Shown here one piece after another: positions 4,887 through 25,946 of a stretch of DNA of 64,000 nucleotides. Where the stretch lies: contig NZ_AYLO01000100.1 of the NCBI RefSeq assembly GCF_000496735.2, positions 1 through 64,000 of the forward strand, read 5' to 3'. Source of the DNA: Methyloglobulus morosus KoM1. Its GTDB lineage: Bacteria; Pseudomonadota; Gammaproteobacteria; Methylococcales; Methylomonadaceae. A program made the translations under genes and the position numbers. The notes under the pieces were generated by a model that worked only from the letters and a program-made list of their open reading frames with translations, searched no databases and had not been told where the DNA came from. Each line of letters opens with the position of its first letter. The stretch's first letter is position 1.

Positions 4887-5966
4887 TCAGCTTTTGTAAG
4901 ATTCTAGGGTCAAACGCAATAACTGTTCATCAACGCCAACAGGCAGCGTAGCTTGCCCAATGGCTTTTAGCAAAATGAGCCTAATTTCGCCATCAACATT
5001 TTTCTTGTCTACCGACATCAATTGCAAAAATTGCTCAGTGCTAAGAGCGTCCGGCGGATACACGGGAAGCCTTGCCTTTTTTAACAGCGCCTTTATTTTT
5101 CCCATCTCGTTATCGCTTAACCAGCCTTTCCGTCTTGATAGATCCGCCGCTTGGCATATCCCGATGGCAACCGCTTCACCATGTAAATACTCACCATAAC
5201 CCAGCCCTGTTTCTATCGCATGGCCAAAGGTATGGCCCAAATTCAAAGTTGCCCTAATGCCCGACTCGGTCTCGTCTTCCGCAACGACCTCCGCTTTATT
5301 CATGCAGGAGCGTTCTATAGCGTATGCCAGCGCTTTCTTATCCCTAACTAACAGCGCATCCATATTATCGTCTAACCAGTCAAAAAATTCAGCATCCCTA
5401 ATAAGGCCGTATTTAATGACCTCAGCAAGTCCGGCGGACAATTGGCGATCATCCAACGTATCAAGGACACCGGTATCAGCGATGACGCACTGCGGCTGAT
5501 AAAATGCGCCGATCATATTTTTGCCAAGCGGGTGATTGACTCCCGTTTTCCCACCGACAGAGGAGTCCACTTGCGCCAGCAAGGTCGTGGGTATTTGGAT
5601 AAAGGGAATGCCGCGCTGGTAACACGCTGCCGCAAATCCGCCCATATCCCCTATCACGCCGCCACCCAAGGCAATCAAGGTCGCATTCCGGCCAAATTTG
5701 TTTGCCAATAAGGTATCGAATATTTGGTTGAGGACATCCAGCGACTTGTATTGTTCCCCGTCTGGCAGGATGACCTGTGCCGTATTGTACGCCCTAAGTT
5801 GCATCAAAACCCTGTGCAAATATAAGGGCGCAACCGTTTCGTTCGTCACCAGCAGCACTTGCTTACCTTTAATGTGCCGTGCATAACATTCAACCTGATC
5901 CAGCAAATCAGGACCTATGTATATGGGATAACTGCGTTCACCTAACGCTACTTGAAGTGTGTTCAT
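4887..5966 (-). CDS. aroB: 3-dehydroquinate synthase
   Basis: A 359-residue NAD- and metal-dependent enzyme that converts DAHP to 3-dehydroquinate, the second step of the shikimate pathway. Visible family features include the glycine-rich [16 protein letters not shown] nucleotide region near 95-115, the substrate loop [14 protein letters not shown], and the metal ligands in AEVIKYG and [11 protein letters not shown]. Length is normal. It lies 3 bases after aroK and 5 bases before damX, so the genes form one operon. The final step of aroK and this gene together supply aromatic amino acid precursors. Confidence 0.97.
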
Positions 5967-5969
5967 TTC

Positions 5970-6521
5970 TTATTGGCTTGCTTGATTGACCGCCCTGTAA
6001 TCTTCCAAAATCCGGCTGACTACAGTTTTGCTCTTGAGGACACCGGTATCTATCTTGAAATTGGCGCAGGACAAATATAAGGCTTGTCGCTGCTCAAACA
6101 GATATTGCAAGTTCTCCTTAGGGTTATCCGCCTTTAATAAAGGCCGCTGGGTATCCCTGCGGGTACGCTCCAATATCCTATCCACAGAACATTGCAAATA
6201 GACGATATAACCATTCTCTTTAAGCAGCTTCCGGTTTTCTTCCCGTAAAATTGCACCACCGCCAGTTGCCAGCACGATGCCTTGCAATTGGGTCAACTTC
6301 TCGATCATTTTCTGCTCGCGATCCCTGAAACCTTGTTCGCCTTCAAATTCAAAGATGGTGGGAATATCGACACCCGTATTCTCTTCGATGGCTTTGTCGC
6401 TGTCGTAAAACGGCACGGCCAGGGCTTTCGCCAATTGCCTGCCAATAGTGGTTTTACCAGCGCCCATAAGGCCTATCAGGTATATATTCTCCGAGGTCAT
6501 CTGGGCTATATTACAACGCAT
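5970..6521 (-). CDS. aroK: Shikimate kinase I
   Basis: A small P-loop kinase (183 residues from the first ATG) that phosphorylates shikimate at O3 using ATP. Walker A GLMGAGKTTIG spans residues 17-27, the shikimate-binding DSDKAIEE and FRDREQKM segments follow, then the GGGAI loop and the lid RRDTQRPLL. The start is uncertain: the ATG at 6521 lies right against the T-run of a strong hairpin (6523-6548), while Met8 (ATG at 6500) would give the more usual N-terminus MTSENIYLIG. Neither has a good ribosome binding site. It heads the aroK-aroB-damX-hemE run, directly downstream of pilQ. Confidence 0.95.
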   Translation of the reverse strand: MRCNIAQMTSENIYLIGLMGAGKTTIGRQLAKALAVPFYDSDKAIEENTGVDIPTIFEFEGEQGFRDREQKMIEKLTQLQGIVLATGGGAILREENRKLLKENGYIVYLQCSVDRILERTRRDTQRPLLKADNPKENLQYLFEQRQALYLSCANFKIDTGVLKSKTVVSRILEDYRAVNQASQ

Positions 6522-21486: not shown

Positions 21487-22242
21487 ATGAACAATCGACG
21501 CAATTTCTATCGCATTTTGCATGTACAACCTGAGGCCCCACTTGAGGTCATCAAGGCAAGCTATCGCAGCTTGATGACTAAACTCAAATTGCATCCTGAC
21601 CTAGGCGGGGATCACGAATCTGCCGTACTGATTAACCAAGCCTACGCCGTCCTCAGTGACCCGCAAAGGCGCAGGCAATACGATGAAATACTGAATGCAC
21701 GCAAAAACCAGGGTCGTAGTCACTTCACTGGCGAATTTCACACCCATTCAACCGGCTGGACAAGAACCCGCAATCCTTCCGGTTACCCCAATACCGGGGA
21801 CGACGACCAGCCCCCCTCATCCACAACCTATCGGTGCCTTTTTTGCCGGGGTAGGCTGATTTCGCAGGGCAACAAACATTGTATACATTGTGGAAGCCCC
21901 TTGTCGCTGGCACAACACATTCCGAATGACCGCCTCGGTGAGCTGATTGGCCGACGCACGACGCCGAGGATCACAAAAGCCGGAACGATCATCATTTATC
22001 CAAGCTGGCCCCATCCAGGCTATCCGGCGAGGTTACGCGACCTGTCGACATCCGGCGTGAGCCTATTGACGGCGTATGGCGCACGCGTCGGACAAATCCT
22101 AAAATTTGATTCCAACAACCTAAAAGCCGTGGCGCGTGTCGTTTCTGTGCGGGCAAATGGCTCGACCTTCTCGGTGCATGCCTCATTCCTGACTGCCGAA
22201 TTCGTCAGCAAATCCGGCCTGTTCGTCACTGAAAAAGCCTAG
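21487..22242 (+). CDS. J-domain / zinc-ribbon / PilZ fusion protein
   Basis: A 251-residue protein with three parts. Residues 6-68 are a J domain with the HPD tripeptide at 36-38, needed to stimulate DnaK-type ATPases. Residues 117-135 hold two CxxC pairs (Cys117/Cys120 and Cys132/Cys135) forming a zinc ribbon. From about 155 a PilZ domain shows the c-di-GMP motifs RTTPR (Arg157-Arg161) and DLSTSG (185-190). The sequence therefore suggests a co-chaperone whose action depends on c-di-GMP; that is inference. The next gene downstream, convergent, is a GGDEF protein. No signal peptide or membrane segment, so cytoplasmic. Confidence 0.85.
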   Translation: MNNRRNFYRILHVQPEAPLEVIKASYRSLMTKLKLHPDLGGDHESAVLINQAYAVLSDPQRRRQYDEILNARKNQGRSHFTGEFHTHSTGWTRTRNPSGYPNTGDDDQPPSSTTYRCLFCRGRLISQGNKHCIHCGSPLSLAQHIPNDRLGELIGRRTTPRITKAGTIIIYPSWPHPGYPARLRDLSTSGVSLLTAYGARVGQILKFDSNNLKAVARVVSVRANGSTFSVHASFLTAEFVSKSGLFVTEKA

Positions 22243-22259: not shown

Positions 22260-23204
22260 CTAATATTTCACGCAATTGCGCCCACTTTGTTTAGCTGAAT
22301 ATAACTGCTTGTCTGCGGCTGAAAATAGTGATTTTGACGTTGAGCTTGCATCGCTAAGCGCAATACCAATTGACACCGTTATACTCGGCATTGCAGCACC
22401 GTCGGGGTGCGCAATGACTTGATTTTCTGTTTCCTGCCGTATTCGTTCCGCTAGTGCGATACCGACCGTCAAATTGGTGTTTGGCAGAAGGACCATAAAT
22501 TCCTCACCCCCAATACGGGCGGCAAAATCATAAGGCCGAATATTGGACCTGACAACATTCCCCATATAAATTAACGCGATATCACCCCCCTGATGACCAT
22601 GTAAATCATTGTATTTTTTGAAGTAATCGATATCAATAACGAGCACGCAAAGCGGTTGGCCGATGCCAATCATTTGCGAAAGGATGCGCGGAAGCGCATT
22701 ATCCAGCCAGCGGCGGTTGTATAGCCCGGTTAGCCCATCGATGTTGGCCTGATTGGTTAGTTCGGATATTTGGACTTGGTCATTGATGATTTTCTGCGTG
22801 TTGGCTTTCATCCATTGGGTAAGTAAACGAAGCAAATTGTATGCAATCGGCTGGGCATTATGTATGAGCTCGAGCAGAAAATCGCGATGAATGGGGAATA
22901 CCCTGCAAAAACCTTTGGCCTTCACGTAAGCGGACGGGGCCGTATCGCCAATAATTGACATTTCGCCCACCGAAAAACCTTCGGTTATTTCCCGAATTAC
23001 GGGCGAGTCCGGCGAATCAAAATGCACTGTGAGCGTACCTGAGAGCAACAAGTAAATATGCTTATTGTCCTGCTCGGGTGAAAGCAGCACTTCACCAGGG
23101 CTGAAACCCAAAGGTTCGGCATGCGCCAAGACTTGTTTTAGGATGTCATCCGATACCTGCCGTAATAATTCAGTTTCTGCTAACTCCTGGATGAGAAGGG
23201 GCAT
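22260..23204 (-). CDS. Cyclic-nucleotide-binding-domain diguanylate cyclase
   Basis: A 314-residue soluble protein. Residues 10-125 form a cNMP-binding (Crp-like) beta roll (YLLLSGTLTV, then EGFSVGEMSIIG), which may bind cAMP/cGMP or act only as a protein-protein module. A short helix leads into a GGDEF domain (about 155-314) with the intact active site GGEEF at 232-236. The inhibitory RxxD site RPYD is at 223-226, so it is predicted to make c-di-GMP with product inhibition. Its target could be the PilZ proteins on either side (21487 and 24267). Convergent with the J-domain/PilZ gene, 17 bases apart. Confidence 0.93.
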   Translation of the reverse strand: MPLLIQELAETELLRQVSDDILKQVLAHAEPLGFSPGEVLLSPEQDNKHIYLLLSGTLTVHFDSPDSPVIREITEGFSVGEMSIIGDTAPSAYVKAKGFCRVFPIHRDFLLELIHNAQPIAYNLLRLLTQWMKANTQKIINDQVQISELTNQANIDGLTGLYNRRWLDNALPRILSQMIGIGQPLCVLVIDIDYFKKYNDLHGHQGGDIALIYMGNVVRSNIRPYDFAARIGGEEFMVLLPNTNLTVGIALAERIRQETENQVIAHPDGAAMPSITVSIGIALSDASSTSKSLFSAADKQLYSAKQSGRNCVKY

Positions 23205-23465: not shown

Positions 23466-23996
23466 ATGGACAAAAATAAAGCTTCAATGACGCTCGTGTC
23501 AATTACCGCCATTTTATTATTGCTGTGCGGTGCTTTTTTCACGATGGGCGGTATTGTCAATACGCGTTCAACCATACCTTCCGGCTTGTACTGGAAAGTC
23601 GATAAGCCCTTAGGCATTGGCAAGACGGTTGTTTTCTGCCCGCCCAACCGACCCGAATTCCAGGAAGCACTGAATCGCGGCACTATTGGTCCAGGCAATT
23701 GCCCGGATGGTTTCGACAGCATGATGTTAATAGTGGCAGCTAAGTTTAAAAATAGAGTGACGATCAATGCTGACGGCGTATACGTAAATAATGTATTGTA
23801 CCCCAATAGCAAGCCGCTCGCGCATGACCGGGATGGGCATCCTATGGCCCTGCCAACAATAGAAAATTATGAATTAAAAGAAGATGAAATTTTGTTAATG
23901 TCCAATATCGATGAAGATGCGTTTGATGGCCGTTATTTCGGCCTGATCGATGTCGAACAGGTGGACTCAGTCATCAAGCCGGTTTTACAGTGGTGA
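23466..23996 (+). CDS. TraF-like S26 family signal peptidase
   Basis: A 176-residue protein with an N-terminal membrane anchor (about 9-30) and a periplasmic domain. The segment NTRSTIPSGLYW matches the nucleophile region of S26 peptidases of the TraF/conjugative type, with Ser35 as the probable nucleophile. The general-base Lys is Lys93 or Lys95 in LIVAAKFKNRV, where the spacing is slightly unusual and the usual LIKRVVA pattern is weak. TraF processes conjugative pilins, but no conjugation gene is near. It could mature a secreted protein of this cell or be a leftover of a lost element. No strong ribosome binding site. Confidence 0.78.
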   Translation: MDKNKASMTLVSITAILLLLCGAFFTMGGIVNTRSTIPSGLYWKVDKPLGIGKTVVFCPPNRPEFQEALNRGTIGPGNCPDGFDSMMLIVAAKFKNRVTINADGVYVNNVLYPNSKPLAHDRDGHPMALPTIENYELKEDEILLMSNIDEDAFDGRYFGLIDVEQVDSVIKPVLQW

Positions 23997-24266: not shown

Positions 24267-25946
24267 ATGAGTTCTCACTCGTTTAATTTGTCATCAACAT
24301 ACCCATCTTGCCCACAGCCCATTACCGTGCCATTGCCGTTTGCCATTGATGAGATGGCGTTTTCAGAATGGCTTAAGACGCTAGCCAAAGAGGGAGAAAT
24401 AACAAAATGCCTGAAAATCCTGCAAGTACTACAAGCGCTGAATAACGATTACCCTCCTGCACGGAACCTCATCCCCGGCAGGACGCGCTTGTTTTTTTTG
24501 GAAAAAATGGGTTTGATGCTGGTGGCAGCCACAACCATGCTAACTGCCCTCCCGAACACTAACGACTCCCTTTCCGAATCGCCTGACAATGAATCGGTCA
24601 GAAATGACCTGTCGGTTTGGAGCACCCTGGAACTTGCAGAGGGGTATGCGCTGTTTTGTCAGGACGACGCTTTTAAAGGGGATGAATACTTCACCATCGA
24701 GGAAAAAACCTCGATCTTGTCCAACGGCATCCAAGCAATGGGCAGAAGCTTGTTATACATTTTCCAAACTTACACCAAACCTGTCACTAATTTTTGGCAC
24801 AGATGCTTTCAATTTTATCGTCACGCCCAACTTAACCGTCTTACGGACAGCGAATTCAATCCCGGCGCACGGGCCATCGACAACGCCTTCAAACGGGTAC
24901 TGGTGTTTGCCCTAAGCAACACCAATCAATTTTCACCGTCGGAAATGCGGACGATTTACGACTTGTTGGGGCTCTATGCAGAAAATACCGGATTATTGAA
25001 ATCCGTCCCCCAAAAGAAGTTCAAGGGCATTCCCTCCATACACTTGAGAGGCAATAGCCCACCCCTTATTTCTAATGAAAACTCGGAAAACCCCGACCCA
25101 GACCGCTTGTATATCGCCACGGTCATTGTCGCCAGCAATATTCTCGAAGCGACTTACGATAAACGCACCCATTATGTCCCTACCGATCGTTTAATGCTTC
25201 TGCGCCTAGCAAAAACATTAACCCTCAACGAGCAAAGAAAAGACCCGAGGGAACCTGCGGAAGGCAACCATCTCGGCATTATGGATTTTGATAACATCGT
25301 CAATTTCTTGCGCAGCAAGGAAATTGAACAACAAAATTTTCTTGCGCAAGCAGGATATTTCGACCCCAGCCGGCCCGGTGAATTACGCGAACTGGATTTT
25401 GAAATAACGCCGACAGATGGCAAACATACTGGAAACTTGATTTCGCAACCAACCTTCCAGGTTGAATTTACCGACACATCGGAGATCTGGAAGAACAACC
25501 AACAAACCCCGCCCCATAAAACCAATATGCACCTCGTCGACAAAAGCCCAAAAGGCTTTGGATTATTATGGACAGACCACCATATAAGGCCCAAAGTAGG
25601 CAGCATTATCGGAATCATGAATAAAAACCTGACCATTGGCTTAATCCGTTGGCTGGCACAATCCAAAGAAACGGGGATGTTCATGGGTGTTGAACTAATG
25701 GGAGAGAATGCCTCATTCGTAAAGGTTTCCAATCCAGGTTATCCAAATAACGAGGTTTATGCCATTTTGTTGCCCGGCAAGGAAGCCACCAAACAACCCA
25801 CCAGCTTGATCTTAATGAACAAAGACTTTCGTCCTAGCGAATTCATATTTATACACAAAAACCACAGGAATGCCCGCTATCGCCTGACCAAACAGCTGCA
25901 CCTCACCTCGTTTATCAACCATGTTGAAGTGATCCGTTCACATTAG
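24267..25946 (+). CDS. Large PilZ-like c-di-GMP signalling protein of unknown function
   Basis: A 559-residue cytoplasmic protein. The first ~400 residues are largely helical and unfamiliar; the C-terminal ~120 residues resemble the PilZ-containing tail of betaproteobacterial and gammaproteobacterial c-di-GMP effector proteins. MHLVDKSPKGFGLLW carries the DxSxxG motif, and SIIGIMNKNLTIGLIRWLAQ resembles the strand pattern of those proteins. The usual RxxxR arginine pair before it is not visible, so c-di-GMP binding is uncertain. The 267-base leader upstream has no clear gene. Nearby cNMP-GGDEF and J-PilZ genes make a c-di-GMP role reasonable. Confidence 0.7.
   Translation: MSSHSFNLSSTYPSCPQPITVPLPFAIDEMAFSEWLKTLAKEGEITKCLKILQVLQALNNDYPPARNLIPGRTRLFFLEKMGLMLVAATTMLTALPNTNDSLSESPDNESVRNDLSVWSTLELAEGYALFCQDDAFKGDEYFTIEEKTSILSNGIQAMGRSLLYIFQTYTKPVTNFWHRCFQFYRHAQLNRLTDSEFNPGARAIDNAFKRVLVFALSNTNQFSPSEMRTIYDLLGLYAENTGLLKSVPQKKFKGIPSIHLRGNSPPLISNENSENPDPDRLYIATVIVASNILEATYDKRTHYVPTDRLMLLRLAKTLTLNEQRKDPREPAEGNHLGIMDFDNIVNFLRSKEIEQQNFLAQAGYFDPSRPGELRELDFEITPTDGKHTGNLISQPTFQVEFTDTSEIWKNNQQTPPHKTNMHLVDKSPKGFGLLWTDHHIRPKVGSIIGIMNKNLTIGLIRWLAQSKETGMFMGVELMGENASFVKVSNPGYPNNEVYAILLPGKEATKQPTSLILMNKDFRPSEFIFIHKNHRNARYRLTKQLHLTSFINHVEVIRSH

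Follow-up and report, generated by a model that had tools for sequence, protein, structure and literature searches.

A single gene of Methyloglobulus morosus KoM1 joins a J domain, a linker, a zinc-ribbon-like segment and a PilZ domain in one chain, and this architecture is conserved among its relatives. The gene lies in the window, by which we mean the whole stretch of 64,000 nucleotides that was analysed. We think it probable that its product is a specialised co-chaperone of the J-domain type, with c-di-GMP setting either its activity or its docking to clients; a c-di-GMP-controlled co-chaperone of DnaK is the most likely reading, with ligand binding and the control of DnaK as the steps that we infer. 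An earlier note on this DNA had described a chain of 251 residues with an HPD tripeptide, a zinc ribbon and the PilZ motifs RTTPR and DLSTSG, and translation of the open reading frame confirms that description. The features discussed below are these:

21487..22242, + strand: the J-ribbon-PilZ gene, ATG to TAG, 251 amino acids, in the order J domain, linker, zinc ribbon, PilZ.
21502..21684, + strand: J domain, residues 6-66, from Pfam DnaJ (51.5 bits), an own-genome search (identical stretch) and a fold match.
21592-21600, + strand: HPD, residues 36-38, from the sequence.
21712..21825, + strand: linker, residues 76-113, with pLDDT below 50 and presumably flexible.
21835..21891, + strand: zinc-ribbon-like C-x2-C...C-x2-C, residues 117-135, with four invariant cysteines.
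21952..22188, + strand: PilZ match, residues 156-234, from Pfam PilZ, motif invariance and fold matches.
21955-21969, + strand: RTTPR, residues 157-161, from the sequence.
22039-22056, + strand: DLSTSG, residues 185-190, from the sequence.
22260-23204, - strand: GGDEF protein with an N-terminal cyclic-nucleotide-binding domain and a GGEEF motif, tail to tail with the J-ribbon-PilZ gene.

In the mechanism that we propose, the J domain would stimulate the ATPase of DnaK through its HPD, while c-di-GMP would be bound at the PilZ barrel by [D/N]xSxxG, which lies on the barrel itself, and by RxxxR, which lies on a switch loop N-terminal to it. In the predicted model the switch loop (residues about 145-164, of low confidence and presumably mobile) joins the ribbon to the barrel, and by analogy with known PilZ proteins c-di-GMP would order this loop and shift the J-ribbon half relative to the barrel. 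Because the loop links ribbon with barrel, the J-ribbon half may close onto the PilZ half when the ligand binds, or may be released from it, and at high c-di-GMP DnaK would be brought to a client or held off. DnaK as the partner, the direction of control and the client are all parts that we infer. We take DnaK to be the natural partner because the own genome has full-length Hsp70s beside J matches: two of its five Hsp70 matches are full length, one standing beside a strong J match on contig C62 and the second beside a weak J match on contig C11. Judged by position, the C62 pair is DnaK-DnaJ and the C11 pair is presumably HscA-HscB.

The gene is present in a single copy in its own genome, which holds seven J-domain matches (one below the cut-off) and five PilZ matches at other loci. 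Within the same family 5 of 237 genomes have an orthologue, and within the same order 5 of 311, the own genome included in both counts. Over the class, a profile of the ribbon and PilZ parts matched 19 of 369 genomes, 15 of them (own included) with the full J-ribbon-PilZ order; the other four matches (L069-L072) are PilZ-only proteins and were not counted in the family. A profile of the J part, applied at E<=1e-18, matched 17 of the 369, namely the same 15, G454 (locus L141) and L142, the last being an ordinary CbpA-like protein that was not counted. The search for the fusion in other genomes that the earlier note had suggested thus finds it in 16 of the 369 sampled class genomes (own included), spread over 14 families. 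Across the phylum 24 of 398 genomes matched, with only the own genome (G000) and G631 counted as family, and this profile search of 398 genomes found no J-ribbon-PilZ member outside Gammaproteobacteria. The other 22 phylum matches were set aside: the 13 with open frames have RxxxR and [D/N]xSxxG and none has HPD, and the remaining nine, which match in the PilZ part, have no frame under the filter (one of these, L092, matches profile positions 7-126 and has two stops inside). Of the 22 loci L091-L112, 21 belong to a single family (f212) in a class other than the window's; these short PilZ proteins carry the pattern R-R-x-x-x-R-H-P and D-[IL]-S-x-G-G, and frames were read for 12 of the 21 (147-190 amino acids).

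A contig scan with the single protein as query returned no relative. With alignment A2 as query the scan, which worked through one ribbon pattern and is not a census, gave five named loci:

L039: Methylobacter sp. KS41.
L040: Methylobacter sp. STD1_208.
L041: Methylococcaceae bacterium fen_1218, broken by two unknown bases.
L042: Methylococcales bacterium SW_4_3, at 5380-6411, a tandem-J relative with a second J-like copy that has no HPD.
L043: Gammaproteobacteria bacterium Dive96_bin10.163, cut at the contig end.

Alignment A5 combines the window protein, four of the named loci and 14 class members in 19 rows, the split L041 being left out, at a mean column identity of 33%. In the tree of these rows 3 of the 16 inner branches are well supported, corresponding to the window's Methylobacter group and one pair, and we draw from it no history of the second J copy. 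Codon-wise comparison (NG86) of the window gene gave dN 0.26 and dS 2.3 against L039, and dN 0.27 and dS 1.7 against L040, with dS near saturation; since dN lies well under dS in both, the sequences point to purifying selection. The antisense strand of 21487-22242, translated in one frame, is interrupted by several stops. A scan for sigma-70 and terminator sites found none on the + strand at the gene, and its counts were the same as in shuffled sequence. Plasmid spread of the gene was rejected, as no plasmid record covers 80% of the protein; ten plasmid records match, eight of them in the J domain only, while the two from Listeria share 26-28% identity with residues 4-169.

Made from the sequence of this one protein, the PilZ call is weak: Pfam PilZ gives E 8e-4 and 20.1 bits against a cut-off of 22.5, which is a threshold set by curators and no biological property, and the own-genome search gives 21.3 bits. 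It is strengthened by the Pfam matches of relatives, by the invariance of the motifs and by the predicted fold. At E<=0.01 Pfam DnaJ matches all 19 members and Pfam PilZ 14 of them (best 4.8e-7), with five unmatched; with PilZ also under the cut-off here, such proteins may well pass through automatic annotation as ordinary DnaJ-domain proteins. Searched against the sequences of solved structures at E<=1, the ribbon-PilZ profile A6 gave four matches, including three Alg44 PilZ chains (E 0.86-0.91); a papilloma E6 match (E 0.54) was taken as chance. The score below the Pfam cut-off, the five unmatched members and the high E values of the PilZ chains all count against the proposed co-chaperone.

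The earlier note had called for structure prediction of the modules, and predicted models match both the J and the PilZ folds. The AlphaFold2 model of the full protein, made with seven rows, has a mean pLDDT of 69 and a pTM of 0.47; it contains the J-domain helices, a loop at 145-164 with pLDDT below 50 and barrel residues 171-240 at about 79-90. A six-strand PilZ barrel is predicted at residues 167-239, with matches to 2rde, 9fnn, 5vx6 and 5xly. Foldseek at E<=0.001 returned three matches, all cellulose synthase with 95 columns aligned, in a region that we take to be its PilZ domain. In structure comparison the nearest match to the barrel of the full-protein model is c-di-GMP-bound VCA0042 (2rde_A, Z 8.7, 82 residues, rmsd 2.4), and BcsA, MrkH, MotI and MapZ also match. 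When the ribbon-PilZ part was predicted alone (mean pLDDT 72), 2rde_A again ranked highest (Z 8.2, 79 residues), level with 3f3b, an unrelated phage-like protein (Z 8.2, 69 residues). PilZ proteins make up 20 of the 21 highest-ranking rows, and unrelated barrels, F1-ATPase among them, appear further down. The Z values of these model-based matches are middling. The register of the switch arginines relative to VCA0042 shifts by a residue or two between the two comparisons, and we therefore claim no residue-by-residue superposition on VCA0042.

The regions around 17 members (16 kb for 14 of them, and 20, 10.3 and 8.5 kb for the other three) and an 18-kb part of the window were compared all against all, and among these 18 loci there is no widely conserved neighbour gene. 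The J-ribbon-PilZ gene itself was recovered in 17 of the 18, its absence for L085 probably reflecting a greedy choice of open reading frames. Most widely shared are proteins like the window's GGDEF protein, at 4 of the 18 loci (window included); of the other neighbour groups printed, one occurs in 3 loci and the rest in 2. A conserved operon was rejected, GGDEF proteins being common in any case, and because it is found near only 4 of the 18 loci the GGDEF neighbour is given little weight. Its product is a probable diguanylate cyclase, and since a GGDEF protein with an intact GGEEF adjoins the gene, c-di-GMP is very likely made in this bacterium. A neighbourhood that names neither client nor pathway counts against the proposed co-chaperone, as does the patchy occurrence in 5 of the 237 genomes of its own family.

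The same architecture would also be explained if c-di-GMP placed the J domain without gating it. Ligand-bound PilZ would then dock on a partner of the PilZ domain (a motor, a pilus, a polysaccharide synthase or a signalling enzyme are candidates) and bring DnaK to that one machine, while J activity stayed constant. MapZ and MotI, whose structures both match the predicted barrel, are examples of PilZ proteins that work by docking on partners; moreover, the long, low-confidence and variable linker between J domain and ribbon is better suited to tethering than to tight allosteric coupling. However, the ribbon stands directly before the switch loop, an arrangement that suits allostery, and no conserved neighbour names a docking partner. 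We regard placement without gating as unlikely.

The protein likely binds c-di-GMP. In A5 Arg157, Arg161, Ser187 and Gly190 are invariant in all 19 rows and position 185 holds Asp 17 times and Asn twice, so that every row carries the RxxxR and [D/N]xSxxG of c-di-GMP-binding PilZ proteins; both are also present, by eye, in L141 and in the L041 fragment. Arg156, the arginine preceding the motif, is kept in only 13 of the 19. From residue 150 onward 5 of 102 columns are invariant, and four of these five are c-di-GMP positions (hypergeometric P ~1e-6, a value that ignores relatedness, the bias of profiles and aligners toward such motifs, and also that 13 of the 14 unnamed rows, though distant from the window's, were found by way of the PilZ part). 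That HPD, the cysteines and the c-di-GMP positions are invariant at a mean column identity of 33% counts in favour of a c-di-GMP-controlled co-chaperone.

Some PilZ proteins do not bind c-di-GMP, and the PilZ part might be a protein-binding module only, in which c-di-GMP plays no role. The weak PilZ score of this protein would fit such a module, and of the two PilZ-DnaK chaperones of Myxococcus xanthus the excerpted text of PMC10313047 expects c-di-GMP binding of CsdK2 only, not of CsdK1. Yet the known ligand positions are the very ones that stay invariant over 19 divergent rows, and all 16 members found through the J profile keep both motifs (15 aligned, L141 by eye), although the search is not fully independent, because the members that went into this profile had themselves been picked up by their PilZ part; only G454 is new. 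We consider a module without c-di-GMP to be very unlikely.

Pfam matches the J domain above its cut-off (E 1.1e-13, 51.5 bits, cut-off 27.8), and the J part of the predicted model matches solved J domains with Z up to 11.5, among them the DnaK-bound J domain 5nro (Z 8.4). As in class C J proteins, which have a J domain but none of the remaining DnaJ parts, HPD sits between helices II and III of the predicted J fold. The earlier note had stated that its reading would fall if orthologues had lost HPD; the tripeptide is present in all 18 rows of A5 that extend to it (L043 breaks off earlier) and, by eye, in L141 and the G002 fragment. The residues directly after HPD are L and G in the window protein, where E. 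coli DnaJ has R and N, a difference that counts against the proposed co-chaperone. The linker varies in length among relatives, and in some a second J copy occupies its place: five complete members (L042, L056, L057, L059 and L065) have a second J-like copy directly before the ribbon, as does L043 as far as its sequence goes, and in all six this copy has no HPD. Each of the five complete members has HPD once, in its first J copy, and this retention in the first copy only counts in favour of the proposed co-chaperone. The residues after HPD, together with second copies whose J folds persist without HPD, could be read as signs of a structural or decoy module that does not act on DnaK, but all 18 of 18 first J domains keep HPD, Arg27 and Arg62. 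We find this reading scarcely credible.

Between linker and barrel, the cysteine pairs CLFC (117-120) and CIHC (132-135) contain Cys117, Cys120, Cys132 and Cys135, invariant in 19 of 19 rows. No Pfam zinc family exceeds its cut-off in the 251-residue protein, and we call the segment a zinc ribbon because of these four invariant cysteines in two C-x2-C pairs; it presumably binds zinc. The DnaJ zinc domain is of a four-repeat type. Canonical DnaJ and CbpA share with the present protein an N-terminal J domain with HPD; unlike them it has a ribbon and a PilZ domain, and Pfam finds in it neither the CxxCxGxG zinc domain nor the DnaJ C-terminal domain of class A at E<=1. With a single C-x2-C/C-x2-C unit and neither of these domains, the suggestion in the earlier note that the ribbon provides substrate contact as in DnaJ is not supported other than as an analogy.

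Among known proteins, the YcgR-like and single-domain PilZ receptors (VCA0042, MotI, MrkH and MapZ) share the barrel, RxxxR, [D/N]xSxxG and the fold matches. Their partner domain is YcgR-N or none, whereas here PilZ is paired with a J domain and a ribbon. The excerpt of PMC10313047 describes CsdK1 and CsdK2 as PilZ-DnaK chaperones, with a complete c-di-GMP motif in CsdK2; both raise the level of a PilZ protein during heat stress, and the interaction between CdbS and CsdK2 is independent of c-di-GMP binding by the client CdbS. No c-di-GMP control of the CsdK chaperones is shown in that excerpt; this and the independent interaction count against the proposed co-chaperone. Compared by this description only, they resemble the present protein in placing PilZ and the Hsp70 machine in one chain, and differ in that PilZ is fused to DnaK itself rather than to a J domain and that the excerpt mentions no zinc ribbon; the 251-residue protein has no match to Hsp70 nucleotide- or substrate-binding domains at E<=1. 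A second excerpt, from PMC8316039, makes a statement on four of the 24 M. xanthus PilZ proteins that puts PilZ joined with DnaJ in print, and reports that 24 single deletions gave three motility defects and two developmental defects. By that statement, proteins that combine a J with a PilZ domain exist elsewhere too, though in a different bacterial group, and the excerpt covers the deletion screen of all 24 genes only, not domain order, ribbon or kinship.

Judging from these excerpts, the joining of PilZ to the Hsp70 machine is already known, including, by the PMC8316039 statement, with DnaJ. The earlier note had not recognised the link between c-di-GMP and a chaperone partner as an established system, and this calls for correction: PilZ-DnaK (PMC10313047) and PilZ with DnaJ (PMC8316039) are in print, while among the matches listed from the open-licence literature we recognised no paper on the J-ribbon-PilZ family and none on control of a J protein by a cyclic dinucleotide such as c-di-GMP. 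Four other candidate precedents were rejected on the text excerpted from them: PilZ and DnaJ are separate proteins in the Treponema paper (PMC4403809), Hsp40 appears only within a reference title in the Leptospira paper (PMC12943098), a review (PMC12564702) has only the Myxococcus paper, as a reference, and the Bdellovibrio paper (PMC9140294) has one mention of a PilZ domain and none of DnaJ.

If c-di-GMP controls a J protein, the switching of lifestyle would be wired directly to protein quality control in various Gammaproteobacteria, and not in myxobacteria alone, for which the PilZ-DnaK proteins suggest it. We further hypothesize that these are gammaproteobacterial second-messenger-gated J proteins, in which c-di-GMP acts as the on/off switch of a dedicated DnaK co-chaperone and the motile/sessile signal directly re-targets Hsp70, a proposal to which we give an even chance of being right. 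The prediction is a sharp one, since it comes down to two arginines, HPD and four cysteines in a protein of 251 residues.

Three further genes were noted. In the window, 23466-23996 (+ strand) encodes a conjugative signal peptidase of the TraF type that scores above the NCBIfam cut-offs for PRK13884 and TraF_Ti; it may mark an integrated element. The gene at 24267-25946 (+ strand) encodes a 559-residue protein without a Pfam or NCBIfam match at E<=1, in whose C-terminal part a DKSPKG stretch recalls, by eye, a PilZ motif. Elsewhere in the own genome, a J-domain protein (G000:C68:7787-8005; L003 1456-2136) has, by eye, a hydrophobic stretch and a charged tail, and a similar protein occurs in a genome of the same genus (L008).
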